Source of the DNA: Tubiluchus corallicola
Taxonomy: Eukaryota; Priapulida; Priapulimorpha; Priapulimorphida; Tubiluchidae
DNA length: 64,000 nt
Reading direction: 5' to 3'
Assembly (NCBI GenBank): GCA_030141605.1
Contig: JAQGDQ010002383.1
Coordinates: 5,001 to 69,000, forward strand
The position numbers and the translations under genes were made by a program. Under the pieces are notes generated by a model. It made no database searches. It was given only the letters and a program-made list of their open reading frames with translations, and was not told the origin of the DNA. How positions within the stretch are numbered: position 1 is the stretch's first letter; every line of letters begins with the position of its first letter. Shown in pieces: positions 1,460 through 55,866 of the stretch.

Positions 1460-4400
1460 TTTCCTGTGTGGAAGTTAAATGCGGAAGTTCACTTCTGAGC
1501 TGCATGTCCATAAGCAGAAACGGCAGGAGCAAGCAGCATCATTAACGAATCGATTTTTCACTTATTATACTTACTCTACGCGTTGAGAACGCACTAAACT
1601 GATTTGTCAACAGCGAAAAATTGTATTACTGTCACATGCATTAGCGTGCAAAGTTAACTAAAAGCAGAAACTTTGCTTGTTATTGGGACAAAATCCAAAT
1701 AGCAGCAAGCAACTACCCATTGAGTCTAACTGGTCTCAAACATAACTTCAGAGACGCTGGTTTCTTTGACTTTTAGCACTAGCTATTTAAAAGTAGAGTA
1801 ATTAGAACTATATAGAAGAATAAATTAACTTATATGGCACGGCAACCATTGATTAAATTAATGTAATTACCTTAGTGTGATAATCAAATTAAAAGCTGGT
1901 TCTAGGAGACAGTCCCACGGGTACTTACCATAAACTGAGAACAGAGAATCGCAGTTTTATCAAATTAAATGATTTAATAAAACAGCAATTAATCAGGGTT
2001 GGCCTATCCATTTTGTGAGGCAATGATTTTTCGTGATGTAATATGAAGTGCACTAATATTATATCTTTTAAAACACGCACTAGTCAGGCAACCAATTTAT
2101 ATGCCTACATTCTAGCAACAATTCTTCGCATTTTTGTAAGTTGAGGTCTTTGTAATTGTCGTGAAACTTCCGTTGAATAAATTATGAACAGAAGTCTTGA
2201 GGCTTGCAGATATGCAAGTTTCTTAGACGCGGACTGCAGCAAACAATAACACAACTTTATGGACACAACACTGTGGAAATGGAATAAATTATAACGCCTC
2301 GAAATCTAAAGTAGCAAAATGTTACATAGCCCTACATGTCGGCATCTGTGTGATAGAAAGAAAAACAATAGGCGATCTGACGTCGCAGAAATGATGCATA
2401 ACTCAATGTCAAAAAAATTCAACATTCTGATGTTACGGGATTATATACGATCTCGACATTCTATAATCTATTGATATTTTATACTTCTCATGCTCTAACG
2501 TACATAATTATATGACAAGTTAACTCAAAAGATTGTGGTACTGACATAAGGTGAAAAGAGAACCGATACAGGTAATTAAAAAAATCCTACGCAACTTTTC
2601 TGAAATTTCTCTTTCGCACTTCCATGCACTGCAGTCGAATTCTTGCAGATTTGCAATCGCTTCCCAACAACCTTTCTCGCAGAACGAAGCTGGTCGGCAG
2701 GTAAACACGGGATAATTACCAATTTAGCAGATTCTGTGCAGATTAATCATGGTTTTGCACGGTATGCCTGACATTTGCCGCAATGTTTGCGCGCCATGTG
2801 GCCACATGCATGGCGGGTTTTGTCAACATGGACTACATTTACTCAGCCGCCGATTAAAGCGCAAATTAACAAGCTCGGAACCACATCTATGCACGAAACC
2901 ATCAGGAAACTATCATAATTATTCCTGTTATGCACATCGCTGCAGAGCCCATGAAGTGACATTTAAAAAAATGAAATTGTATTGCGATATTGGTTATTGC
3001 GATGTGTCGCAAAAACTACAAAACGATTACGATATTTCGCTAGACTATATAACACTAACTGTTACGGCTAACGTATAACGCAAAACGGTATTACACTGGC
3101 ACGTATCACAAAGTAGTCGCGACTCGCGAGAGATTTCTCAACTTTAGGGCCCGTAATTTTAACCAAAAACTAACGAACTGTAACTTATGATTTTTTGTAA
3201 GCCAGAAGCTAAAAAGATTGTGAAGTTTCCTTACTATTCAGTGATATATAACAGCTAAACTATAACTATTAACAGCTAAATTTAAGATTTAATTGCATAA
3301 TTTGCGATTATGTAATAATTGTGTCACTGGTCATAGTTTTAAATGGTTGTCTGCGCTGCTCGCATACTGTTCAAAAATTCAAAAGAAACACATTTAAATT
3401 ATTAAAAATATTTTAAAAATGGGCAAAATAACGATTAACAGCAAAATTCCCTGTGTTCGTACTTTACAAAACAATAATAAGTACAAATATATTTGAGACC
3501 CAAAAGCTTGTGTGGCTTATTACGGCCTATAAAAACTATGACAGTGTTAATTAGGCCTATAAGTTAACAACTAATGCAATCAATTAAATTTAATTACAGC
3601 ACCAAAAAATGCAATATCAGTTGAGTTAGCGTCAGGAAACAACGAGAGAGGTTGAAAACATACAAATACGCAGCTGCAGCTATAACATTACTTAGGGTAC
3701 AACCAATTAATATAATTTTCTAATGAAAATAATGAAAATAGAGTTTGGTAAATTATACTACTGGATGAAGAATGTTTGTTTGTAAATCTGGACTTAAAGT
3801 CTACTGATGCTAGGCATTGGAGTTTAGGGTTGGTAGAATTTCATATATAGCTACACCGAGGTACTCTATTGAAAAATTACAAAAATTGATATTACATTTT
3901 ATTGAGTGATAGTTACGGTTGTTAGGAGTGTTATGTACAAGAATATTTAAATTTTGTTCAAAACAGTTAACAAATGTCGGGGAAGTAAATTTTGATTTTA
4001 TTTGTACAAAAACTGCTTCAAATTTATTTACATAATAAAAGATTTAAAAATCCAAGATTCTTATTTAGCAACAGTTTCATTGCTCGATAGGTATAATATA
4101 GTTTTAGCAATTCGTTCTTAAAGAACATAAATTTCTGTCTATTTTGCCTTCGGCAACACAGAAATGGTCACAGACGTGAAAACTGAAAATGTAAGCTTAC
4201 TTTTTAATAACGGCTCGTTTGCACGCGACTCAACTGGTGATAAGACATTTGAATTTGGAAAGCGTGCACTACACTAATCGGTATAATACAAATTTAAGCG
4301 TTGACGATATCGATCATTACTCATACAGAATCAGAAATTTTCAGCAAACGTCTCACGACATAATATGACCAGTTTAAACTTATAATTATGAACAAAAGTC

Positions 4401-5690
4401 ATGTTGCTAATCTAGAAACATGCGAATGATTAGGCACAAATTCGTCATTATAATTAGCTACATTTGTTGGTGTGAACAAATTAAAATCTTTTTCTACTAT
4501 AGGAACACTTCCTAGGAAAATTCTGTCCATTTTCTTACATCACTAAGACTTCGCATTATACATCACTGACTCATCAATGAGTGTCTGTAGCACCAGAGTT
4601 TTCTTTTGAATATGATTTATTCGAAATTGCGCCAAAGGCAATTTCATCGTGAATGAGATATATGCACAATATCGACGTGTGATCAGTGAGTAATTGTTGC
4701 AGAAAATTTAAAACGACATTCTAAGAAAAGATGTTCTGTTATTTAGGAAATCGAGCTAAAACTCAGCTAATGGCCTACGCTTTATATATCTAACAACCTC
4801 TATTTTGCCAAATTTATTTGCAATCTTATATCTGTTGTAGTACATTTCACAATTTTAGGTTTCTGCGACGAGGAGATAACGAGTGCATATAATTGTATGC
4901 ATAATAAATGCAACTGTAAATTAGCTTTTACATAGTACTCGATAACTTATACATAATATATGGTATGCTAGTAAGACAATACCTATACTTATAAATGCAA
5001 CTGTAAATTAGCCTTTACATAGTACTCGATAACTTATTCACAAACTAGTGCGATAAATAAGAGAAAAAGCAATCGTGCGTGTGTCATATACTGCGTTGCA
5101 ATTAAACATGTCAACACAAGTGAACACTAACAATACTTTCGAAGGATAATCTTTCACGAAATTATCCGTTTGCTAATTACTGCAACCCGCAGCATCCGTA
5201 GTCATGACAACGCATCACGCAAACATAATCCTGGTTAACTTGCTTCGCAGCTTCTTTTTATGACCATAAGCCTACATAATCGTGCTACGTGTCATACTTT
5301 TTTAATTTCTATGCGCAGATAATATAATGCGTCAAATTATGATGAATATTTTCTATTGTTCACCTTGCTATGCGCGCAGCGCGCTAAACCATAAAATTGA
5401 CCACAGCGTCAGCTTGTTATAATTAATTGAGCCAAAATGTGGAGACTTCAGGAAGTCGTTATTCGATTAACAACTATAAGCCTATATATAATCACACTCG
5501 ATCGAAAAACTTGCAACAGCTAAGAGCCCCTCTCTCTCTCTTCTCTCTCTGCAGAGTAGTGGCGTGAATCTCGTTGTCATGGGAGCAACTGGAAATTCTT
5601 AAGCTAATGTTTTTGCTATTATTTTCTGTCAATAATTAAAACTTTTGCGCGCAAAACTCTAACCTAAAACAAATCAAAACGAAATGAACT
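1460..5690. other. Intergenic DNA without recognisable genes
   Basis: About 4.2 kb of AT-rich sequence. A 109-codon open frame at 2749-3078 (plus) is Cys/His-containing, but I recognise no family and see no flanking exons. A short TC-rich run lies near 5527-5550. Confidence 0.45.
4908..5045. repeat. Tandem duplication of about 82 bp
   Basis: A segment beginning ATAAATGCAACTGTAAATTA occurs at about 4907-4960 and again at about 4989-5042 with one or two differences, continuing through ACATAGTACTCGATAACTTA. The spacing is about 82 bp. Confidence 0.75.
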
Positions 5691-5699
5691 TTGAATTTA

Positions 5700-6520
5700 A
5701 TTGAATTTTTATTTATTTATTTGTATCGTACAACAGCAGTATACAACAAAGTGTCAGTAACAATTAAGCAGTTAGAGAGATAATTGTATCTCACATTTAT
5801 TTTTTTTATTTTCATCTTTATTTTGCCTAGTTCATTTCACTAGTTTGCTACATTTGCCATTTCAGTCTATTTATTTTTGCTACATTTATTTTCAACTACA
5901 TTGTCATTTTAGCTGCGTGTCTTGACAATTTTCTACAATCAGTTATCTTTATTAATAATTGCTCATTCAAGGCTGGTATTATAGATTATATATGATGCTT
6001 TTATTTAGTTTTAAATTATTCTGTTAATTATTATGCCTTACAATTATCACCTATTTTTAATAAAAAAAAATGTGTGCTTTATATTGCCATTTCAGTTTAT
6101 TTTTATGCATTGCTTATCTCAGAACCGTTTTTTTACTTTGTGCTACTCCATATTTTGATTTATACAGTTTTTTATATCTAAATTGTTTGTCTAATTTGCA
6201 AACATAATGTCTGTTGTTTTATGCTGTTTGATTTTGGTATTTTGTTTTGTCATTTAAAACTAGTTTTTGTTACCATTTATATATTATATATATAATTATT
6301 TATATTATATATATTTTTACATTTACAATTATTATATTTTTACATTTTGACAGTCATTTGTTTTGTCTATATTTTAAATCGTCACTAAATGTTCTTCTAC
6401 GAACTAAAAGGGTGGCTGACTTGCTAACCTAAGTAACGTTTACGGTTATTTCGCCACCCTTTTTCTAAATTAGTACTCAATTTGTTTGTGTGTTTGTTTA
6501 TTGTGTAGGCTATAGTTACA
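5700..6520 (+). mobile_element. Probable non-LTR element 3' region with GGGTGGC hairpin
   Basis: A T-rich, non-coding stretch ends in a hairpin whose arms are GGGTGGC (6410) and GCCACCC (6455), followed by a TTTG-rich tail. The same hairpin (GGGTGGCTGAC, then TTTCGCCACCCTTT) recurs at about 37727-37771, just ahead of a (CTTG)n tail. That layout, a conserved 3' hairpin plus a simple-repeat tail, is typical of LINE or SINE 3' ends. Assignment to a family is inference. Confidence 0.4.
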
Positions 6521-10704: not shown

Positions 10705-11063
10705 GTAACCACAAGCAATTGCTACTGCCTGTTTTAACGAATTTTCGCATGTAACGTGCAAATACTACTAATATCAGGCAGGTGTGATGTAAAATTCAAC
10801 CCATGTCAATTGTTTCCTACACTGCAACCAGAGCAATTAATTTGAATTTGGTTATGCATGTATTTTCTTAAATTTTAATTTTTCAGAAGAAGAAGAGCTG
10901 AATGGTCAGAGTGTGTGTTTGTGTACGATAGTTTTTTGTGCAATAGCCGAGAAAGTTGTTTCTGAGTGATTTCGGTGCCTGCGGCAATAAATTTACCTGG
11001 TTAAATGAAAACCGGATGATTGTGTAAACATTAGTTCGGAATAAAGAATACTGTAAAGTAGGA

Positions 11064-11801
11064 TAGATGTTACACCTCTGGCCGATTTCCCGGGGGGGGT
11101 GGGGATTTCCCCGGGGGGGTGGGGAAAAACACCCCTAAAAAAGTGCGAAAATCCGGGAAAACCCCTAAAAAAGTGTGAAAACCCGTGTGAAAGTGCGCAC
11201 GTGACCGAAATCGACGAAAAAGCGCGAAAAACAAAGAAAAACGAAGAAAAGGCGTGTGAAACGAGGTAAAAATTTTCCATTTTTTCCCTCCCGCACGGCT
11301 TCATTTGGATCGAATGACCTTGAACTCTAGGTCACGTGACCAAAGTTCATTGACCCCTGGCCCCTGGATGGCTTCTTTTTTTGACGCCCCATTTTAAACC
11401 GCGCGAAACCGCGCGAAAGTGTATGAAAGCGCGTGAAAGCGTGTGAAAGCGCATGAAAGCGTGTGAAAGTGTGTGAAAGTGTGTGAAACGAGGTAAAAAG
11501 CGCCTCAAACGAAGAAAAAGGGAGAAGTGGAGTTCCCGCCGAGGACTAATTAGTGCTAATTGGCGCTAATTGGCGCTAATTGGGGAGCCCCTGCCACCCC
11601 TCCGCCGCATGCAAACGTCCGTCCCGGGGGTCGGGGACACCCCCCTGCAACCCACCCCTCCGTCGCGTGGAATCGTCCACTGCAGGCAATGAGGGAAATC
11701 TTTTTCCCGCCACTCGCGCAGTGCCGACCCTTTTCCGCGACCACTTCTCTCTCTCTCGGGTGTCCTCCCTTTTCCGCGACCACTTCTCTCGCGGGTTTAG
11801 A

Positions 11802-11837
<36 letters not shown>

Positions 11838-12048
11838 CGTGTGGAGATTTATTTCAAACGCCAAAGTTCGATAAATGCATTTTCACAAATCTTTTTTTAT
11901 TGATGGATTACAAAAAATTTTTTTACATTTTTTATGCAAAATACATACGTGCTAAAACTAGATTATTATTATTATTATGGTGACATGATAGTTCTACATT
12001 TTACGTTTTTTTCGCAAATTACACAAATTACGCAAAATTACAGTAAAA
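11064..12048. repeat. Left terminal non-coding region of the palindrome
   Basis: This begins with alternating G and C runs, then short motifs ending in GAAAA. A block of roughly 10-bp GCGTGTGAAA units follows at 11397-11500, then a GC-rich stretch (11540-11790) and a GT/GC microsatellite (about 11801-11845). The reverse complement is found at 14860-15809 in the same order. Repeat-rich, gene-free termini are usual in linear viral genomes; that link is inference. Confidence 0.7.
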
Positions 12049-12636
12049 CTACACTAATGACGACGAGCGAGTACATGGATTGTCGTCGTCGATGCGATAC
12101 AGACAAACGTTATTGTTGTTAAAAACGAATTCGTTAAATTTGCGGAAAACGCGAGAGAAATCCTCGACCTTTGTCCCGCCCATCATTATTATGCTTCCGG
12201 TGTGAAAAATGTTCAGAGTAATTTGCTCGCATTTGCAAGTTAGTTTGGGAAATAGTTCCACTTCGTAAAACACTTCTCTAAAAGAATGCGTCGAAGGACG
12301 AACGAGTTCTTCGTACAGTGCACCCAGTTTCAATCTGCAGCGAATTTTGGCTCTGGCGGTGATGGTGCGAATTGCGATCCCGTCGGCGGGCGTCAGTCCG
12401 AGACCTTTCGAGAGTTCTTCGATCGCATTGCGTAGTACTTTTTCCTCTGAAAAACCGTTGGCCACCACGGAGCCGGAGGCAAAAATCATCAGCGTCCCGC
12501 CCAGTCGCTTTAGCAGAACCATTTGCGGTTTCCTTTCGTAGCGTCTTCCGCCTGTTCTCCGCCAGAGTTCGTTCAGATCGAAGCGCTGCGAGAACGAAGC
12601 AGTGGCGACGATGTTGACCGTTTGGACTGACACGTT
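12049..12636 (-). CDS. TATA-binding-protein-like gene, left arm copy
   Basis: About 195 codons resemble the two-fold-repeat saddle domain of TBP. The first repeat starts VNIVATASFSQRFDLNEL and continues through TLMIFASGSVVANGFSEE. The second contains FYEVELFPKLTCK, matching the Y-E-x-E-L-F-P landmark of TBP, and then TLNIFHTGSIIMMGGTKVED. TBP binds promoter DNA and nucleates transcription; some large DNA viruses carry their own divergent version. The frame has no obvious ATG before the homologous region: it overlaps the end of the upstream gene in another frame, so it may be reached by splicing, frameshift or a non-AUG start. The tail is Asp-rich and then Ser-rich. No stop or frameshift lies within the domain. 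Confidence 0.75.
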   Translation of the reverse strand, partial: NVSVQTVNIVATASFSQRFDLNELWRRTGGRRYERKPQMVLLKRLGGTLMIFASGSVVANGFSEEKVLRNAIEELSKGLGLTPADGIAIRTITARAKIRCRLKLGALYEELVRPSTHSFREVFYEVELFPKLTCKCEQITLNIFHTGSIIMMGGTKVEDFSRVFRKFNEFVFNNNNVCLYRIDDDNPCTRSSSLV

Positions 12637-13085
12637 AGTACGTAGTTGGCAATCGTTTCGGACGCCCGAACCGCTCTGCCTCGTCCGTTGCTCTGCCAAC
12701 GTATGGCGGGCGGCGGGTGCTCGCTTTCCAGATCTTCTACGCGTATGACCACGCGATTTTTGGGGAGATGTTTTTTGACGAAATCGTACATCTCTGCCCC
12801 CTTGACGTAGGTGATCCTGCCTCTGGTGGTCTGTCGTAGAATGTTTTCCAATTCTGCGTACTCGATCATTCCCTCCTCCCACGAGATGCCGTGTATGTGT
12901 CTGATTAGGTAGTTGTAGGTGGATCGCTCGTGCTGGGGAACGCGATTCCAGGGGTGGGGCGGTTTGAAGGTGTAGTTGTGATATATGCCGGTCTCTATTT
13001 CGCGAATTACCAAATTTTTGACCAGGTATTCTTCTTTTCCGCACTGGAAGGCATCTACGGTGAGAACTATGCTCGATTCAGACAT
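12573..13085 (-). CDS. Conserved virus-like protein of unknown function, left arm copy
   Basis: 170 codons starting at ATG 13085. Visible features are a KPPHPW motif near residue 44, an HGISWEEG motif near residue 67, and a segment reading RITYVKGAEMYDFVKKHLP. I have the impression of similar HG-(I/L)-SW and YVKG segments in uncharacterised invertebrate virus- or element-derived proteins, but cannot name the family. The start codon overlaps the stop codon of the preceding gene (ATGTCTGA). The C-terminus overlaps the TBP-like gene by about 60 bases in another frame. Confidence 0.7.
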   Translation of the reverse strand: MSESSIVLTVDAFQCGKEEYLVKNLVIREIETGIYHNYTFKPPHPWNRVPQHERSTYNYLIRHIHGISWEEGMIEYAELENILRQTTRGRITYVKGAEMYDFVKKHLPKNRVVIRVEDLESEHPPPAIRWQSNGRGRAVRASETIANYVLTCQSKRSTSSPLLRSRSASI

Positions 13086-13304
13086 CTGTGACGATGGGGG
13101 GTCCTTCTACGCCGTCGGCAACGAGTTTTCCTTCGATGACGATTTGCTTGTGATTGTTCACAAATTCCAGAGACTTGATTTTTTCGAAGGTGTATTTTTT
13201 TATGACCTTGTTGGGGGCACTCTTGCGTGCGTTGGCGCGCTTGCCGCCCCGCGTCCCCGCTTGTTGTTGTTGCTTGCGAGGAACGGTGGTTAGAGGTTGT
13301 TTGA
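13078..13304 (-). CDS. Small basic protein of the virus-like element, left arm copy
   Basis: An open frame ends at 13078 with TGA overlapping the next ATG. The product is Gln/Arg/Lys-rich, then reads KKYTFEKIKSLEFVNNHK and ends GPPIVTDV. Upstream no ATG is available; the frame is only open back to a TTG at 13359. A strong 3' splice site (TTCTTCTTCTCTTGCAG) lies immediately before GATTTCAAA at 13304, so this may be a second exon. Function unknown. Confidence 0.5.
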
Positions 13305-13359
13305 AATCCTGCAAGAGAAGAAGAACAATAGTTATAGTATTGTTGTTCGCTAACGACAA

Positions 13360-13620
13360 CTAGGCATTTTTGATGAGCCATTCTTTCAGATTTCTAGGTT
13401 TTTTGGGGGCAGTGGGGGTGAGCACCATCGGCGGCGATGGAGGGGGCGTCGCGGAAATTACGAGTTTGTCTTCTTCTTTATCATCATCTTTCTCCTCTTC
13501 CTCCTCCTCCTCTCGAAAGATGTCCATTCGTGTCCCTCTCTCGCGTCTGCTTTTACACGGAGGGGCGGAGGTGCCGACGTCCGTGTCTGGCAGACTTCTT
13601 TCCGTCCAGTTTGTCCAGTT
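13360..13620 (-). CDS. C-terminal fragment of an acidic protein in the single-copy centre
   Basis: The only gene part not duplicated in the palindrome. The minus-strand frame runs through an Arg-rich segment, an acidic run (EEEEEEEKDDDKEEDK), a Pro-rich stretch (ATPPPSPP) and a basic end (KKPRNLKEWLIKNA), stopping at TAG 13362-13360. The 5' part is missing: upstream the sequence switches at 13620/13621 to the inverted right arm. The fragment marks the original order acidic gene, basic gene, conserved gene, TBP-like gene. Confidence 0.5.
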   Translation of the reverse strand, partial: NWTNWTERSLPDTDVGTSAPPCKSRRERGTRMDIFREEEEEEEKDDDKEEDKLVISATPPPSPPMVLTPTAPKKPRNLKEWLIKNA

Positions 13621-13824
13621 CCTCGCAAGCAACAACAACAAGCGGGGACGCGGGGCGGCAAGCGCGCCAACGCACGCAAGAGTGCCCCCAACAAGGTCAT
13701 AAAAAAATACACCTTCGAAAAAATCAAGTCTCTGGAATTTGTGAACAATCACAAGCAAATCGTCATCGAAGGAAAACTCGTTGCCGACGGCGTAGAAGGA
13801 CCCCCCATCGTCACAGATGTCTGA
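13621..13824 (+). pseudogene. Small basic protein of the virus-like element, right arm copy, 5'-truncated
   Basis: Same frame as the left copy from the Gln/Arg-rich region to the GPPIVTDV end. It is cut at the inner junction (13620/13621), so the putative splice acceptor and everything before it are absent. The stop overlaps the ATG of the next gene exactly as on the left. Confidence 0.6.
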
Positions 13825-14329
13825 ATCGAGCATAGTTCTCACCGTAGATGCCTTCCAGTGCGGAAAAGAAGAATACCTGGTCAAAAATTTGGTAATTCGC
13901 GAAATAGAGACCGGCATATATCACAACTACACCTTCAAACCGCCCCACCCCTGGAATCGTGTTCCCCAGCACAAGCGATCCACCTACAACTACCTAATCA
14001 GACACATACACGGCATCTCGTGGGAGGAGGGAATGATCGAGTACGCAGAATTGGAAAACATTCTACGACAGACCACCAGAGGCAGGATCACCTACGTCAA
14101 GGGAGCAGAGATGTACGATTTCGTCAAAAAACATCTCCCCAAAAATCGCGTGGTCATACGCGTAGAGGATCTGGAAAGCGACCACCCGCCGCCCGCCATA
14201 CGTTGGCAGAGCAACGGACGAGGCAGAGCGGTTCGGGCGTCCGAAACGATTGCCAACTATGTTCTAACGTGTCAGTCCAAACGGTCAACATCGTCGCCAC
14301 GGCTTCGTTCTCGCAGCGCTTCGATCTGA
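13817..14329 (+). CDS. Conserved virus-like protein of unknown function, right arm copy
   Basis: Intact 170-codon copy of the left-arm gene with very few residue changes (for example Glu to Lys near residue 52 and Glu to Asp before HPPP). Both copies being open, with mostly conservative or silent differences, suggests recent duplication or continuing homogenisation between the arms. The same KPPHPW and HGISWEEG motifs are present. Confidence 0.7.
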   Translation: MSESSIVLTVDAFQCGKEEYLVKNLVIREIETGIYHNYTFKPPHPWNRVPQHKRSTYNYLIRHIHGISWEEGMIEYAELENILRQTTRGRITYVKGAEMYDFVKKHLPKNRVVIRVEDLESDHPPPAIRWQSNGRGRAVRASETIANYVLTCQSKRSTSSPRLRSRSASI

Positions 14330-14859
14330 ACGAACTCCGGCGGAGAACGGGCGGAAGACGCTACGAAAGAAAACCGCAAATGCTTCTGCTAAAGCGACTG
14401 GGCGGGACGCTGATGATTTTTGCCTCCGGCTCCGTGGTGGCCAACGGTTTTTCGGAGGAAAAAGTACTACGCAATGCGATCGAAGAACTCTCGAAAGGTC
14501 TCGGACTGACGCCCGCCGACGGGATCGCAATTCGCACCATCACCGCCAGAGCCAAAATTCGCTGCAGATTGAAACTGGGTGCACTGTACGAAGAACTCGT
14601 TCGTCCTTCGACGCATTCTTTTAGAGAAGTGTTTTACGAAGTGGAACTATTTCCCAAACTAACTTGCAAATGCGAGCAAATTACTCTGAACATTTTTCAC
14701 ACCGGAAGCATAATAATGATGGGCGGGACAAAGGTCGAGGATTTCTCTCACGTTTTCCGCAAATTTAACGAATTCGTTTTTAACAACAATAACGTTTGTC
14801 TGTATCACATCGACGACGACGACGACAATCCATGTACTCGCTCGTCGTCATTAGTGTAG
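14266..14859 (+). CDS. TATA-binding-protein-like gene, right arm copy
   Basis: Mirror copy of the left TBP-like gene, about 197 codons, also without stops. It differs by a few substitutions (for example Arg to His near the C-terminus) and two extra Asp codons in the acidic tail. Landmarks VNIVATASF, FASGSVVANG, FYEVELFP and TLNIFHTG are retained. As on the left, the frame overlaps the end of the upstream gene and has no ATG before the domain. Confidence 0.75.
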   Translation, partial: NVSVQTVNIVATASFSQRFDLNELRRRTGGRRYERKPQMLLLKRLGGTLMIFASGSVVANGFSEEKVLRNAIEELSKGLGLTPADGIAIRTITARAKIRCRLKLGALYEELVRPSTHSFREVFYEVELFPKLTCKCEQITLNIFHTGSIIMMGGTKVEDFSHVFRKFNEFVFNNNNVCLYHIDDDDDNPCTRSSSLV

Positions 14860-15809
14860 TTTTACTGTAATTTGCATAATTTGTGTAATTTGCGAAAAAA
14901 ACGTAAAATGTAGAACTATCACGTCACCATAATAATAATAATAATCTAGTTTTAGCACGTATGTATTTTGCATAAAAAAATGTAAAAAAAATTTTTTGTA
15001 ATCCATCAATAAAAAAGATTTGTGAAAATGCATTTATCGAACTTTGGCGTTTGAAATAAATCTCCACACACACACACACACACACACATCTAAACCCGCG
15101 AGAGAAGTGGTCGCGGAAAAGGGAGGGCACCCGAGAGAGAGAAGTGGTCGCGGAAAAGGGCCGGCACTGCGCGAGTGGGGGGGGGGAAGATTTCCCTCAT
15201 TGCCTGCAATGGACGATTCCACGTGACGGAGGGGTGGGTTGCAGGGGGGGTGTCCCCGACCCCCGGGACGGACGTTTGCACGCGGCGGAGGGGTGGCAGG
15301 GGCTCGCCAATTAGCGCCAATTAGCACTAATTAGTCCTCGGCGGGAACTCCACTTCTCCCTTTTTCTTCGTTTGAGGCGCTTTTTACCTCGTTTCACACA
15401 CTTTCACACGCTTTCGCGCACTTTCACACACTTTCACGCGCTTTCACACACTTTCACATGCTTTCGCGCGGTTTTGCGCGGTTTAAAATGGGGTGTCAAA
15501 AAAAGAAGCCATCCAGGGGTCAATGAACTTTGGTCACGTGACCTAGAGTTCAAGGTCATTCGATCCAAATGAAGCCATGCGGGAGGGAAAAACTGCAAAA
15601 TTTTTACCTCGTTTCACACGCCTTTTCTTCGTTTTTCTTTGTTTTTCGCGCTTTTTCGTCGATTTCGGTCACGTGCGCACTTTCACACGGGTTTTCACAC
15701 TTTTTTAGGGGTTTTCGCGGATTTTCGCACTTTTTTAGGGGTGTTTTTCCCCACCCCCCCGGGCAGCCAAAGGGGGGGTGGGGAAATCGGCCAGAGGCAA
15801 AACATCTAT
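14860..15809. repeat. Right terminal non-coding region of the palindrome
   Basis: Inverted copy of the left terminal region. It holds a shorter CA microsatellite (15065-15090), the GC-rich stretch, the TTTCACACGC-type repeat block (about 15390-15480) and the C/G-run end finishing in AACATCTA at 15809. Differences from the left copy are mostly in microsatellite and homopolymer lengths. Confidence 0.7.
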
Positions 15810-16275
15810 ACTACTGAGGCCGAAATACCTGGGAAAGTTAAAGTTGTCCAAAAGTCCTGTAAGACCTTCACGACCTGGTAGAACCAGTACTTGACAATAA
15901 TTATTGAAATTATCTCTTTTACTGCATTTGTCACAGACTGGCAATGTTTAAAGCATGTGACGCAAATTGTGGCCTTCAACTATAGGTGACAGTAGGAAAT
16001 TGTAATAAAACCCATCGACCTGTTTTTGTGACTTGATTATAGCTTTTTAATATAAGGCTTAGTTCTAAAAATCCTAACGTTGATTGGGATAATATGTACA
16101 AAACATCCAGGTTACAGAATTCTTGAGATTCGAACACCAAACTATCACTGTCCGTTTGTTTTGGATTTTTTTTTGTAAAAAATAAACCAAAACAGGTACA
16201 CCAGGGGAAAGTAATTTTTGTTATTATAATGGTTATTCTCGCGGTGATTTCCAAATAGTTGTTTTCTTTTTATAG
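15810..16275. other. Gene-free stretch between the palindrome and the RhoGEF exon
   Basis: About 470 bp with no recognisable coding part. In particular, no phosphatase catalytic motif is encoded on the plus strand. It ends with the acceptor TTTTATAG before 16276. Confidence 0.5.
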
Positions 16276-40900: not shown

Positions 40901-43900
40901 TGATGAAAATAATTGGTACTAATAACGCTATTTAAAAGTTGAATTATCAGTGAATGATAAATTATTATGTAGAAGATAACCGCCCTGCAGGTCAAGTGAC
41001 TAACCTCAAAATTGTCCTTGAAATCTATCATCTACTACCATTAATCCTTGCAAAGCGCCTTGTGTAAAAAACATCTCTGGTTATTTGTGCTCAAAGAGAA
41101 AAAGCTTCTCATAATATTCTTGATTTCTAAATGCAGGTTTAGTGATTATTTACCAATGATGACTTATCACCTTAATGGAATATGGAACAAACACGCTGGT
41201 CATGGAAGTCCTTTGCATCCTCACTCCTACGATGTGGACAAAACTGCGAATATTGTAAGTGAAGAGGTCGCCTTTGAAATATCTTTGTTTTTAGTAATTT
41301 CAGTTAAGTGTAAGACAACTTGGAAAATCACACACAAGCAAGGGCAGCATTTTTGTGTCATGTGTGTGAAAGGGATAAATTATTGGAAAATCACGGAAGC
41401 ACTTTTGAGACTAATAGCTATGAAGATGCGGTATGATCGTTTTCCTTAGATAACCTAGTAATCTTCCATGCCATATAGTGTTCCTTGGTTTTTAGGGTAC
41501 TTGGATAACCTAATAATCTTCCATGCCATGTAGTGTTCCTTAGTTTTTAGTGTACTTGGATAACCTAATAATCTTCCATGCCATGTAGTGTTCCTTAGTT
41601 TTTAGTGTACTTAGATAATCTAATAATCTTCCATGCCATATAATGTTCCTTAGTTTTTAGTGTACTTAGATAACCTAATAATCTTCCATGCCATGTAGTG
41701 TTCCTTAGTTTTTAGGGTACTTAAATAACCTAGTAATCTTTCATGTCATATAGCGTTCCTTAGTTTTTAGTGTACTTAGATAATCTAATAATCTTCCATG
41801 CCATGTAATGTTCCTTAGTTTTTAGTGTACTTAGATAATCTAATAATCTTCCATGCCATGTAATGTTCCTTAGTTTTTAGCGTACTTAGATAATCTAATA
41901 ATCTTCCATGCCATATAATGTTCTTTAGTTTTTAGTGTACTTAGATAATCTAATAATCTTCCATGCCATGTAGTGTTCCTTAGTTTTTAGTGTACTTAGA
42001 TAATCTATTAATCTTCCATGCCATGTAGTGTTGCTTAGTTTTTAGTGTACTTAGATAATCTAATAATCTTCCATGCCATGTAGTGTTCCTTAGTTTTTAG
42101 TGTATTTAGATAATCTAATAATCTTCCATGCCATATAACGTTCCTTAGTTTTTAGTGTACTTAGACAATCTAATAATCTTCCATGCCATATAGCGTTCCT
42201 TAGTTTTTAGTGTACTTAGATAATTTAATAATCTTCCATGCCATATAGCGTTCCTTAGTTTTTAGTGTACTTAGATAACCTAAATCCTATTATCGTTGCT
42301 TTTTTTTAAGGAATTCATCGTCCAATATTGGATAAACCATGGAACGGATCCAAAGAAATTGCTGCTGGGAATTCCTCTTTTTGGACAGACTTACACTCTC
42401 CAAGACCCATCTGACCACATGTTAAATGCACCTATTGTAGGAAGTGGCAAGGCTGGACACATGTATCAACAGGAAGGAATGATGCCGTACTACGAGGTTT
42501 GTGCCCACAAAACTTTGCTTGAGCTTATTCTTATTAAGATTTTCGGCTTCTTGTGGATTGGTAAACACCAATCTTATTACTGCTTAAGTGATAGATTTAG
42601 CCAACTGAACAACTGATAATGCTTCTTGCGAATATTTTTTGAATGACTTACAGATCTACGTCTTCACTCATAATAAATGAATAAATTACGACAAAATTTG
42701 CAGATTATAAAGATTCGCAAATCTGTTTCGGAAAATTCACAAACATTTTAATGGTACCAATGTGCGGCATTTGTCACATTTGCAAATAAATAAAAATTGT
42801 GGTTTATTTCTATTAATTTTAATGACTTGCATTACTTAAATCTTTTGTAGGTGTGTTCTGAAGTGATGCCAAGCTATGAAAGCTTTTGGGTTGAAGATCA
42901 GCTTGTTCCATTTGCTTACAAAAATGACCAATGGATTGGCTACGAGGATTCAAGGAGTATTAGTGAAAAGGTAACAATCCTTTGCAGTATATTTGGACAA
43001 GTTCTAGAACTTCCATCACCAAACTTTCACTAATTTTTTTGTACGTATTGTTGACCACAGTTAGCATTCAACTGGTTACTGATCACCAACTTTTGTAATT
43101 TTTGCAACGCATTTGCATGTTATCAACGGGCCTCATTTTTCCCTGACTGACAATAGGGTTCGTCTAACTAGTTTTTGTTTGTAGGTCAAGTATGTGATCG
43201 ACAATCACCTTGGAGGCGTTATGGTCTGGGCATTAGGTTTTGATGATTTTAAAGGTCATTGTAATCATGGAAGGAATCCTCTGTTGACCACAATAAAAAC
43301 AGAATTGCTGGAAGTGACACAGGTGACCTATGTAATCCACACAAAATCTTCAAATGTTTTACAGCAGTTGCCGCACAAGTATGAAACGGGTGCAGTAGAA
43401 CCACATTATGCAACATCACATCACGGTGAGACGTACAGGCGTCATACTGTGCAACATCGGCGACACTACGTACAACATGTATCCCATCAGCAAGAAGGAC
43501 AACACCCTGTTCATGGATATGATGAGCACCATGCCTACCATGGGCACAGTCGCAGTCGCAGAGTGGAGTCATCATATTCACGGCACGGGAATTATCACGA
43601 TGCGTATCCTCATCAAACACAAGGAAGTTACATACCATATCAAGAACACGAAATGATTCCCCACGAAACGTACAATTACGAAACATATCCACACAGAGAT
43701 GCATATGAAGTCTACCCTAGCAACAGCTATCCTTATGACGCTCACAATTATGTAATATATCTGCCGGAGCAGTATGACGTGCACCCTCATCAAACACATG
43801 AGAATTACGGTGCATATTCAGCACATGGACAGTATGATGATTTCGAAGTACATCCTCGTGAAAGTTCTGAAATATATCCAGTAAACGAGCCGCATGCGTA

Positions 43901-46337
43901 CCCTTATGAAAAAAGCAATTATTACGATACTTACCCTGGGTCTGAACTCTATGAAGTTCATCCTTATGAAAGTTATGGTTATGAAACACACCCTGATGAA
44001 CTGTATGCTGAACATGGACATTATGAAGGGCATCCTCGTGAAACATACCCTGAACATGGACATTATGAAGGGCATCCTCGTGAAACATATCCTGAACATG
44101 GACATTATGAAGGGCATCCTCGTGAAACATACCCTGAACATGGACATTATGAAGTGCATCCTCGTGAAACATACCCTGAACATGGACATTATGAAGTGCA
44201 TCCTCGTGAAACATACCCTGAACATGGACATTATGAAGTGCATCCTCATGAAACATACCCTGAACATGGACATTATGAAGTGCATCCTCGTGAAACATAC
44301 CCTGAACATGGACACTATGAAGTGCATCCTCATGAAACATACCCTGAACATGGACATTATGAAGTGCATCCTCGTGAAACATACCCTGAACATGGACATT
44401 ATGAAGTGCTTCCTCATGAAACATACCCTGAACATGGACACTATGAAGTGCTTCCTCATGAAACATACCCTGAACATGGACACTATGAAGTGCATCCTCA
44501 TGAAACATACCCTGAACATGGACACTATGAAGTGCATCCTCGTGAAACATACCCTGAACATGGACATTATGAAGTGCATCCTCGTGAAACATACCCTGAA
44601 CATGGACATTATGAAGTGCATCCTCATGAAACATACCCTGAACATGGACATTATGAAGTGCATCCTCATGAAACATACCCTGAACATGGACATTATGAAG
44701 TGCTTCCTCATGAAACATACCCTGAACATGGACACTATGAAGTGCATCCTCATGAAGCGTACCCTGAACATGGACACTATGAAGTGCTTCCTCATGAAAC
44801 ATACCCTGAACATGGACACTATGAAGTGCATCCTCATGAAACATACCCTGAACATGGACACTATGAAGTGCATCCTCGTGAAACATACCCTGAACATGGA
44901 CATTATGAAGTGCATCCTCGTGAAACATACCCTGAACATGGACATTATGAAGTGCATCCTCATGAAACATACCCTGAACATGGACATTATGAAGTGCATC
45001 CTCATGAAACATACCCTGAACATGGACATTATGAAGTGCTTCCTCATGAAACATACCCTGAACATGGACACTATGAAGTGCATCCTCATGAAACATACCC
45101 TGAACATGGACATTATGAAGTGCTTCCTCATGAAACATACCCTGAACATGGACACTATGAAGTGCATCCTCATGAAACATACCCTGAACATGGACACTAT
45201 GAAGTGCATCCTCATGAAACGTACCCTGAACATGGACACTATGAAGTTCATCCTAATGAATTATATCCTCATGAAGAGTATCCTGAACATGGACACTATG
45301 AAGTGCATCCTCATGAAACGTATCCTGAACATGGACACTATGAAGTGCATCCTCATGAAGAGTATCCTGAACATGGACACTATGAAGTGCATCCTCATGA
45401 AACGTATCCTGAACATGGACACTATGAAGTGCATCCTCATGAAACGTACCCTGAACATGGACACTATGAAGTGCATCCTCATGAAACGTATCCTGAATAT
45501 GGACACTATGAAGTGCATCCTCATGAAACGTACCCTGAATATGGACACTATGAAGTGCATCCTCATGAAACGTACCCTGAACATGGACACTATGAAGTGC
45601 ATCCTCATGAAACGTACCCTGAACATGGACACTATGAAGTGCATCCTCATGAAACGTACCCTGAACATGGACACTATGAAGTGCATCCTCATGAAACGTA
45701 CCCTGAACATGGACACTATGAAGTGCATCCTCATGAAACATACCCTGAACATGGACACGATGCATATGAAAGCTATCCAGGCCACTATGATACGTATCCA
45801 TCACATGTTTCCACAGTTGGTATTCCATTTCCACACCATACAGCTTATTCTTATGAAGGGTATCCTACAAATCAATCCTATGAACAATATCCACGTAATA
45901 CTTACAACGATTATGAATTACCTGGTACTGTTGGACACGAGACATATCCCAGTAATACTCATGGGGGCGAAAGCCTTGGCCCAGTAGTTGCCCAGGAAGA
46001 GCAGAGGCCATATAATCCAGAATTGGAGGAAACAAAACTTTCGGATTCCGGTTCATCTGCTTCTGGAAGAAACGGCGCTGTGGGAATGGCTACAGAAAGT
46101 ACGCAATGTGAGGTGAAAGGACCAGGTCCCTCTTGCTCCGGACATTCGCACATGGTAATGGCAAATCCAATAAACTGTCGCAAGTACTATCTATGTCTGT
46201 GGCAGAACACACCCAATGAAATGCGTGTTCCAATGAACTGCCCGGAGGGAACAGTCTTTCATCCATTCAAATACATGTGTGATGATAAGGAAAATGTTGA
46301 TACATCCGTAATATGTAAATGTGGAGAAGAGTCGTGA
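36710..46337 (+). CDS. Secreted GH18 chitinase-like protein with 41 His-rich repeats and a CBM14 domain
   Basis: Eight coding exons join in frame: 36710-36779, 38113-38304, 40243-40505, 40748-40872, 41137-41254, 42311-42496, 42851-42970, 43185-46337. They give 1408 residues. Exon 1 begins MQGIGVCLVLVLLAGLSSTE, a signal peptide. Exons 2-8 form a GH18 fold: VRFCFYPGE, TCTHIVFGYA, VLLAVGGW, FDGLNVDWEFP, MMTYHLNGIW, LLLGIPLFGQTYTL and GGVMVWALGFDD. The catalytic Glu is present, but the usual DxxDxDxE reads DGLNVDWE (second Asp to Asn) and MxYD reads MTYH (Asp to His). A long His/Tyr-rich linker follows, then 41 copies of a 14-residue unit near YPEHGHYEVHPHET. A CBM14 chitin-binding domain closes the protein (CSGHSHM..., six cysteines, about 46135-46315). 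The protein likely binds chitin in a secreted matrix; hydrolytic activity is uncertain. The ATG sits 1 base after an acceptor, so a non-coding upstream exon is expected. Confidence 0.9.
37700..37945 (+). mobile_element. Non-LTR element 3' end with (CTTG)n tail, in chitinase intron 1
   Basis: Hairpin GGGTGGCTGAC / TTTCGCCACCCTTT at 37727-37771, an AT-rich 3' segment, AATAAACTTG, then about nine CTTG/CTTA units (37888-37938). Shares the hairpin with 6406-6463. Confidence 0.55.
38380..38636 (-). mobile_element. tRNA-derived SINE
   Basis: On the minus strand, 38575-38632 has a tRNA-like head: A-box-like TAGCCTGATAGG, an anticodon-arm-like CGTCCGAGCTCCGTACAGGA, and B-box-like GTGTTCGATAC. The body continues to lower coordinates and ends in ATCATC-rich sequence near 38380-38430. 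A functional tRNA is unlikely because no acceptor stem closes. It lies in chitinase intron 2. Confidence 0.65.
39300..39670. other. Possible LINE or SINE 3' ends in chitinase intron 2
   Basis: (CAATT)n followed by AATTTTTTATTTGG at 39307-39343 suggests the tail of a minus-strand element. AAATAAATAGTACAATGAATG followed by AATC repeats at 39629-39668 suggests the tail of a plus-strand one. No coding remains are visible. Confidence 0.35.
41445..42290 (+). repeat. 55-bp intronic minisatellite, about 15 copies
   Basis: Unit includes AATAATCTTCCATGCCAT, then GTTCCTTAGTTTTTAG and TGTACTTAGATAA. It fills the intron between exons 41137-41254 and 42311-42496 almost up to the acceptor. Each unit carries a pyrimidine-rich TTTTTAG that resembles a 3' splice site. 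Confidence 0.95.
44010..45760 (+). repeat. 42-bp coding repeat of the chitinase-like gene, 41 units
   Basis: Coding minisatellite giving YPEHGHYEVHPHET-like units. Early units have GHPRET, middle units alternate HPRET, HPHET and LPHET, and late units are uniform HPHET. One unit near 45247 is enlarged by five residues (NELYPHEE). Each unit has up to four His, two Tyr and three Glu. Confidence 0.95.
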
Positions 46338-53799: not shown

Positions 53800-55866
53800 A
53801 AAACTATGTCACGAAGATTTTGCATATTGTGTTTTTTTGTTCCACATGTGTGCGCCATTTTTGTTCCAGTGGCAAAATTCGATTTTATGCGTGATAAACA
53901 ATTTACAGTTTTAAATAAATCTTTTTGTATTAAATAATTGGAACTTATCCGTGATTGTATTTATATTTTGGTACGGAACTGCCGGGAAAAGAGACCTTTA
54001 GATGAGTATGGCTGAGTGTGATAAAATTAAACACTCTAGAAGTAGATCCAAGGGTTGGGTGAAGACTGGCATAAAATTACTAAAAGAGGCGATGTCTAGT
54101 GAAACGCCTAACTTTGTGTTTGTTCAGCAAAAATTAGAGAACCTTGGAAAATATATTGCCACCTTTAATGAAACAGAAGTGTAGTTAGAAGATTATTTAG
54201 AAGGTGAAGAACTTGAACAAGCGATTATAGAGGCAAGTGAATTAATCAACACAGCGGAATTAATTTCTGCTCAGGCACTAAGTTTGCTAAAACCAGATTC
54301 AAGACCATGTAGTCCTAGTGATTTCCAGCGACATGCAAGTGATAATGATTTTGTCTTGCGACGAGTGAATAACTGTGATTTAGCACGTAGTGAAAGTGCA
54401 GCGAATTTACCAACTAATAATGTAGTCGGTGCAGAAGTCACCAACATAAAACTACCTAAATTGCAACTGCCAACTTTCAGTGGTGACCCATTGAAGTTTT
54501 ACGAATTTTGGGACATGTTCGTTGCCTCTGTGGATGCTAAACCTGTACCAGACGTTCATAAACTTGTTTACTTAAAGAGCTTACTTAAAGGTGAAGCTGC
54601 TCATGTGATAGATGGCCTGCAGCCTGTAGATGGCAATTATAAGGAAGCTGTTTCTTTGTTAAAGGAGAGATTTGGTGATAAAGACGCAATCGAGATGTCA
54701 TTGTTAAAAAAACTGTGGCAGTTAAAGCCCATCACCGATTCGAAAAATATTGAAGCACAAGGAAGTTTTGTAGATGAGCTTGAAGTTGTTATAAGAGGCC
54801 TCAGTGCAATGGGACTTAGTACAGAAGAATTAGGTAAAACCCTAAAACCTCTCTTTCTAGCAAAAATTCCATATGCTTGGCGTGTTGAATGGGAGTGAAT
54901 GAGAAGGCGTGAAGATGACAGCGTGAAGATGACACAACATGCTTTGAAAAATTTCGACAGTTCATGAAAAGCGAAGTTGATATTAGACGAAAGGCTGCTT
55001 CATATACTCGCCATAGAGAGTCTGGTGAATTTAGTCGTCGTGCTGGGTATAAGAATTTAGGTGTGAGGAGCACCCTAGATTCAGTTTCTCTTCTTCAGTC
55101 TAGTGATTTTTGTGGAAACACCAAAAATGCGCCTACAGCTTCAAAGAATTCCCATTGTTTATTTTGTGGCAGAGCTCAACATATGTGGCTTGATTGTGCG
55201 TCTCTTCCTACTAAGACTTTGCAAGAGCGAAAACAGAAGGTTGCTGAGCAGCACCGTTGTTTTTTGTGTCTTGGTTTAAACCACAGAGCTGATACTTGCC
55301 GTAAACCTCCATGCAACCGATGTAGTAAATGGCATCATTATTTATTGTGCAATTCAATTGCTGGCTGCTTCCAGGTGAGTCCTTATGTTAAAAGAGGTTC
55401 AAATACTTCTGATGCAAGTGTTGATGTTCCATCAGTTCATTTACAGTCTTTTTGTACGAATGTTGTGTTCTTAATGACTGCGACTGCTGTTTTGGAAGAT
55501 ACCAAATCGTCAATTCCTATTCGTGTTTTTATAAATCCTGGTGCCACTACCTCTCTTATTTTGTGTGATGTTGCAGAGCGAGCAGGTTGCGAAATTATAG
55601 GCGAGCGTAATCTTTCGTTAGCTATTATGGGTGGACTTAGCACACCGCAACAGAAATGCCACATTGTTCGTGCTAAACTTCGAACAAATACAGGAAAAAT
55701 TGTGACCTTTAATGCCACCACCCAAGATAAACTAGTGAGACCCTTTCCGGCATGTTCTGAGGGTGATTGGTTAGGAGACTTAAAGGGCATGATCCTAGGT
55801 GACCCAGAGATTCTTTGTGGCAATCCACGAGAAATTCATCTACTGGTTGGTATCCCCCAAAGATGA
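53800..55866 (+). pseudogene. BEL/Pao LTR retroelement fragment: leader, gag and protease, no pol
   Basis: LTR-like sequence with a TTAAATAAATC polyadenylation signal (about 53910) and a primer-binding-site-like TTTGGTACGGAACTGCC (53967) precede the coding part. Gag opens at 54002 and is broken by TAG at 54182 and TGA at 54896, with a frameshift near 54960. Recognisable parts are the DUF1759-type capsid region (LPKLQLPTFSGDPLKFYEFW), three zinc-knuckle-like motifs (CLFCGRAQHMWLDC, CFLCLGLNHRADTC, CNRCSKWHHYLLC) and a DUF1758 aspartic protease. In the protease the active-site DSGA/DTGA reads NPGA, so it is inactive. The sequence stops at 55866, where 5S spacer resumes. No reverse transcriptase, RNase H or integrase follows. 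Confidence 0.85.

Follow-up and report, generated by a model that had tools for sequence, protein, structure and literature searches.

We analysed a 64,000-nucleotide window from the priapulid Tubiluchus corallicola (contig JAQGDQ010002383.1, positions 5,001 to 69,000), in which an earlier sequence-only reading had described a fold-back palindrome made of one end of an unknown DNA virus or virus-like element. The palindrome is confirmed as sequence. Two inverted arms (11057-13284 and 13618-15815) flank a unique centre of 333 bp (13285-13617); the arm length of about 2.2 kb had been given correctly, the centre as 337 bp. The alignment of the arms has 2239 columns with 2126 matches, 61 mismatches and 52 gap bases (97.2% agreement over aligned bases), and their inner 1203 nucleotides are 99% alike, far above chance. 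The outer ends, formerly called identical, are alike, matching at 89% over 35 nucleotides. They form an inverted pair, a left terminus of type A (5'-AGTAGGATAGATGTTACACCTC..., 11057-11091), which follows unrelated flanks at other loci, and a right terminus of type B (...GCAAAACATCTATACTACT, 15781-15815). As had been seen, the G+C content is higher here (0.467-0.496 in the 1-kb bins of 11001-16000) than in the remaining bins of the window (0.270-0.428).

Read outward, each arm carries the end of a small gene, a 170-residue open reading frame (ORF) and an overlapping frame for a TATA-binding-protein (TBP)-like protein, which bears out the compact, outward-facing arrangement described before. The TBP-like frame and the 170-residue ORF lie at 12049-12633 and 12573-13085 on the minus strand of the left arm and at 14269-14859 and 13817-14329 on the plus strand of the right arm, and overlap in different frames by about 60 nucleotides (12573-12633 and 14269-14329). 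The C-terminal end of an acidic protein (13360-13626, minus strand) terminates at 13360 inside the centre, and the next gene, the small one (13078-13359, minus strand; frame end ...PPIVTDV; its assignment draws in part on a further locus, L022), crosses from the centre into the left arm. In the right arm this small gene is truncated. That arm begins abruptly inside it, as the sequence-only reading had it, at a 9-bp microhomology (GTTCCTCGC, 13618-13626): the native forward match ends at 13626 and the reverse match starts at 13618.

The arm and centre are, on sequence comparison, the left end of a Polinton/Maverick element found elsewhere in the same genome (loci L023, L029, L022 and L033). In contig C1626 (L023), element coordinates 783-2570, which span the inner arm and the centre, are matched without interruption at 98.4%; identity to the outer 856 bp is 94.3%. 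The centre is therefore the native inward continuation of the left end, and the left arm (11057-13284, minus strand) is the left end itself, as the sequence-only reading had proposed without naming the element. The longer relative that it had suggested looking for beyond the acidic gene was also found. Going inward from there, L023 encodes an acidic open frame of 337 residues; next come an ATPase-like ORF, two more ORFs, of which the first is small and basic, and then an integrase (rve, E 8.2e-17). Further on in the same contig, L029 holds the integrase tail with a chromodomain (E 2.5e-6), a putative penton-like ORF with no family match, a capsid protein, a protease-like ORF and PolB, inside which C1626 ends. 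PolB could be followed further in L033 (1404-3467; PF03175, E 2.5e-10), where it is 96.5% identical to that of L029. The ATPase-like ORF (FtsK_SpoIIIE, E 0.007; AAA_14, E 0.005) and the protease-like ORF (Peptidase_C5, E 0.0043 in L022 and 0.0071 in L029) gave weak matches under the curated cut-offs. As rve integrase, PolB, a double-jelly-roll capsid protein and a protease-like gene occur together in L023, L029 and L033, the parent is a Polinton/Maverick, the defining genes being taken from passages of PMC4028283 and PMC12220804.

The capsid protein has 141 relatives at E<=1e-10, several of them, among the 120 listed, named F54H12.2-like. An AlphaFold2 model built from an alignment of 39 sequences (the query plus 38 of the 120 listed relatives) had a mean predicted local distance difference test (pLDDT) score of 88.3 and a double-jelly-roll fold, matching Sputnik (3j26, E 1.1e-15), mavirus (6g43, E 4.4e-14) and also PBCV-1, and we assign the protein as a predicted double-jelly-roll major capsid protein. 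Neither it nor PolB had a match in IMG/VR. The element has 5'-AG...CT-3' ends, in keeping with the AG rule for Polinton ends, and the family looks young and recently active. An unknown virus is thus rejected by the gene set of L023 and L029. The arms had also been set apart from ordinary transposons; homology to a known transposon family with a transposase, which had been named as evidence to the contrary, was found by way of the parent's integrase. The window's element itself encodes no integrase or polymerase and is not an autonomous Polinton, consisting of two left ends only: among five ORFs scanned against Pfam, TBP gave the sole match above cut-off, and no transposase family was found in those five (smaller ORFs lay outside the scan). 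A PC4-like identity for the acidic protein was dropped, the Pfam match being at E 0.062 and the best solved structure (E 0.39) unrelated.

Two degraded pieces of the family were also seen. An older, broken left end lies in C387:30000-39900 (L021, 4639-6297; about 80% identical, with stops) and jumps to the same internal point (about 6070 of L023) as locus L025 described below, perhaps by a shared deletion. In C1972:31000-37000 (L035, 2777-2939) there is a piece from close to a Polinton terminus, without the last 20 bp, within a rearranged PolB region whose PolB score is repeated in C88, C1994, C2034, C2113 and C2284; this is perhaps another reused contig.

One native right end was read. L033 (on C2073) is the right end of the same family, with PolB, an acidic ORF and the terminus, of type B as in the window, at 5815. 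The acidic ORF, 333 residues long (3396-4394), lies between PolB and the terminus and has no known Pfam family. The match of this end to the arm is limited to the outer 84 bp (element coordinates 4676-4759; 85%); a sensitive comparison of L033:3401-5830 with the element gave nothing further better than E 0.25, and neither the TBP nor the 170-residue gene was found there. The terminal inverted repeats expected of a Polinton are therefore present but short (about 84 bp, 85%; left and right ends taken from different copies), against the several hundred base pairs that are usual according to passages of PMC12220804. Because only the outer 84 bp are shared with a native right end, the 2.2-kb inverted arm at 13618-15815 (plus strand) would be a second left end, and the arms are read as a left end duplicated head to head, not as native repeats. 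Long native terminal repeats were rejected on the strength of this one right end.

The TBP-like assignment proved sound. The right copy matches PF00352 at E 5.5e-22, residues 20-182 of the frame align to solved TBPs, and residues 17-183 match the NCBIfam TBP models at E 2.1e-12, under their subfamily cut-offs. The left copy, like all copies with an intact 170-residue ORF, has no in-frame ATG before a mid-domain Met; an upstream ATG does occur in a few copies that are truncated or rearranged, L034 among them. At E<=0.01, a shared-word search of 5.8 billion proteins returned a single relative, P0003, which is 59% identical, lies on a contig of 1855 bp and likewise begins at the equivalent Met; IMG/VR returned none. 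For the 170-residue ORF, whose right copy served as the query, there was no Pfam or NCBIfam family and no relative in IMG/VR or the protein collection (both searches being limited to relatives that share short exact words), and its single-sequence model was useless (pLDDT 38); a eukaryotic family that resembles it may exist. The comparison of the arm proteins with viral and metagenomic collections that had been proposed therefore turned up a relative for TBP only.

Copies of the two genes were counted at >=95% gene coverage, dropping 2 partial TBP and 16 partial 170-residue matches. There are 20 distinct TBP sequences in 34 copies (17 without an internal stop) and 12 distinct 170-residue sequences in 24 copies (11 without an internal stop); twelve copies of each gene belong to one reused contig, treated below. 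The ratio of non-synonymous to synonymous polymorphism (pN/pS) is 0.53 for TBP (17 sequences) and 0.18 for the 170-residue ORF (11 sequences), values to be read with the overlap of the genes, the relatedness of the copies and the non-independence of the pairs in mind. Distinct codon changes number 9 synonymous and 19 non-synonymous in TBP, so that constraint on it is modest, and 11 and 8, respectively, in the 170-residue ORF. Unusually, then, this Polinton left end carries a TBP gene; searches of one open-access library listed nothing on point for a Polinton-borne TBP, and neither "TATA" nor "TBP" occurs in PMC11071308.

The part of the window from 12905 rightward recurs in the assembly. With the inner arm as query, the genome (343.5 Mb, 2344 contigs) yielded at least 46 matches, 40 of 68 candidates having been scored, and all counts are lower bounds; 20 stretches on 19 contigs, a subset of all matches, were read as a first set. 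The last 2911 bp of the element (12905 to the element end) are present with <=2 differences in 11 other scaffolds (C2200, C2066, C1850, C1781, C2, C2271, C2254, C457, C628, C14 and C2185), and the downstream flank there is that of the window over 23 to 6603 bases each. In nine scaffolds the right core match lies 342,597 bases from the scaffold end; the other three are reversed and have 342,597 bases ahead of it. A run of N abuts position 12905 in five scaffolds, and the readable left flanks are all different. Twelve scaffolds share a single 342.6-kb contig (contig K; 12905-64000 in the window), which begins inside the left arm and was duplicated by the assembly at this repeat. Its identity was checked over the element part and up to 6603 flank bases, the remainder following from the equal lengths. 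Since the N runs stop at the same base and the end distances are equal, contig K was joined to many left neighbours. The outer left arm (11057-12904) comes from another source contig, so that it and the left flank are not necessarily part of the right-hand locus.

Inverted joins of the left end are not confined to contig K. Five distinct ones were read, not one unique event. Given as distance t from the left terminus, the join in contig K runs from t2561 to t2228 (microhomology of 9 bases), that in L024 (C47) from t2251 to about t848 (9), that in L026 (C229) from t2401 to t724 (10) and that in L027 (C197) from t2415 to t1052 (8). In L025 (C354) t1894 is followed by a short piece matching L023:6070-6185 and then by t1761 (4). 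The same 4430 bases of L025 are also found in C2254 (L016); like that of contig K, this recurrence is due to contig reuse. None of the five join stretches has N at the join. When 200,000 inverted joins were placed at random in the native left end, microhomology of >=8 arose in 0.0265% and of >=4 in 1.8%.

We put at roughly 0.6 the probability that these inverted left-end dimers arose by microhomology-primed fold-back or template switching in linear, strand-displacing replication and were then inserted. Polintons carry PolB of the protein-primed type, a class of polymerase that displaces strands. In favour of the account, phi29 polymerase, which belongs to this type, makes inverted joins of a similar form in vitro (passages of PMC1855051; figures below). 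A strand begun at the left terminus would stop inside the element; its 3' end would anneal, at some 8-10 nucleotides of microhomology, to the complementary strand of the same end, its own or another copy's, and would be extended back to a left terminus, giving a left-left dimer. The product would be a short linear molecule with a replication and integration end at both ends, which could be inserted by integrase supplied in trans. That the dimers formed during protein-primed replication, and that they were inserted already complete, are both inferred, the second from L024 and L026, where the arms end at the termini of the element and the flanks on the two sides differ.

Several observations weigh against this account. 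The window is a scaffold composite, in which the dimer is physically supported only from 12905 rightward; it is not a single faithful locus, and it is a live risk that the structure at this locus differs. The join in L024 is complex: beyond the 9 shared bases the match to that place in the arm goes on for 5 more, a few unmatched bases come next, and the arm resumes at about t848. For three of the five joins a contig end, where chimeric reads collect, is close by (that of contig K is 713 bp from the contig start, and the L026 and L027 stretches begin 363 and 8 bp away from theirs). Each join was seen at one place only, so the data do not speak for multiplication of dimers. Target-site duplications were absent at both loci with two gap-free termini (L024 and L026), and the hexamers flanking all termini that were fetched, 21 distinct ones (one containing N), included no matching pair; note that the pairing of left and right flanks is unreliable in this assembly. 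Insertion as a finished dimer is weakened accordingly.

The differences between partner arms also tell against a simple snap-back of one molecule, which would give arms that are identical at the outset. Agreement over aligned bases is 99.5% in contig K (380 bp, as in the window), 99.6% in L026, 98.7% in L025, 96.9% in L024 (much of the difference in the outer 55 bp) and 96.4% in L027. In a site-by-site comparison of 24 aligned arms, which covers L025, L024 and L026, L025 has 7 differences at t850-1761, of which 4 are shared with other copies and 3 are private to one arm. L024 has 13 differences at t60-830, of which 11 recur in other copies, four of these being neighbours in repeat-rich sequence; in L026 all four differences recur. 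This pattern favours two copies, by joining or by template switching between them, over one copy snapping back, unless the assembly has mixed copies. The snap-back of the sequence-only reading thus survives as an inverted join of one linear end, and not as a demonstrated event within a single molecule.

The strongest competitor to formation during replication is that the joins are library or amplification chimeras, made by strand-displacement mispriming, or contig-end errors, the true loci being ordinary Polinton left ends. Contig K is reused in 12 scaffolds and its join is close to its start, and phi29 polymerase in vitro is described, in passages of PMC1855051, as joining sequence in inverted orientation with loss of what lies between (85% of 475 chimeras had this orientation), mostly from 3' ends priming at 2-21 complementary nucleotides, which is the form of the joins seen here. 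Yet five different joins fall within one element family, those of L024 and L025 are well away from the ends of long contigs whose fetched stretches contain no N, the diverged arms of these two loci are unexpected for an in-vitro copy of one molecule, and in L024 and L026 the symmetry ends at the element termini. Such defined ends and host flanks would not be expected of phi29 chimeras, and we regard artefact as unlikely, while giving it more weight than either of the following.

If a Polinton had long terminal repeats (>=2 kb, each including the TBP gene), an internal deletion would also leave an inverted arm pair around a short centre. The one native right end, with its 84-bp match and no TBP or 170-residue gene found, speaks against this, as do the five joins with their five arm lengths (t724 to t2228), and the explanation is quite improbable. 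Host repair, by break-induced replication or end joining, might have inverted and duplicated an already inserted copy, and microhomology is typical there too. In that case host flank should have been copied along; the flanks of L024 and L026 differ and the symmetry stops at the termini, which, if the assembly is right there, makes host repair very improbable indeed.

An extended form of the replication account is tentative, the odds being somewhat against it: that Polintons here replicate as linear, protein-primed virus genomes and repeatedly shed left-end dimers like those of adenovirus, which are inserted by integrase in trans and persist as palindromic parasites with two intact TBP genes under selection. 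The precedent for the mechanism lies in defective genomes of adenovirus, in which, as Daniell reportedly described in 1976, an inverted duplicate of the left end is present. These share with the present dimers a left end at both ends of a short molecule derived from a linear genome with protein-primed replication; the molecules here, by contrast, are found inserted in an animal genome. Compared with Polinton/Mavericks of the virus-like, adintovirus type, the family has the same integrase with chromodomain, PolB, double-jelly-roll capsid, protease-like ORF and terminal inverted match, and differs in its left end, with a TBP gene and an ORF of no recognised family, and in the left-end inverted dimers. 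For palindromic or fold-back Polintons, too, searches of one open-access library listed nothing on point. A virus-encoded TBP-like protein (wsv303) is also known from large DNA viruses of animals such as the nimaviruses, whose genomes are, however, roughly 300 kb (passages of PMC10871703).

What the locus holds is an element of a kind already known, at a place where the assembly is composite; the recurrent head-to-head joins of one end may be a true record of how Polintons replicate. If the replication account is true, inserted one-end inverted dimers, each carrying a separate microhomology join, would bear on whether Polintons of animals still replicate in the manner of viruses, as fossils of free, linear, strand-displacing replication that could be read in any long-read genome. 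A Polinton-borne TBP would mean that such elements can bring their own promoter-recognition factor. A caution for assemblies also follows, in that palindromic repeats can lead them to attach one contig to many scaffolds.

Other features of the window and its contig are as follows. The first 5000 bases of the contig (C2159:1-5000, L031) are N. The exons to the left of the element, which we take to be PPEF-like, gave an IQ motif in Pfam (E 7e-4, just under the cut-off); a regular-expression search of the window found no PPEF-type phosphatase motif. A retrotransposon gag gene, presumably BEL/Pao-like, lies at 54185-55863 (DUF1759, E 4e-26), and at 42284-46334 a chitinase-like exon (GH18, E 1.1e-7) is accompanied by a chitin-binding domain that follows a long PEHGHYEVHPHETY-type repeat.

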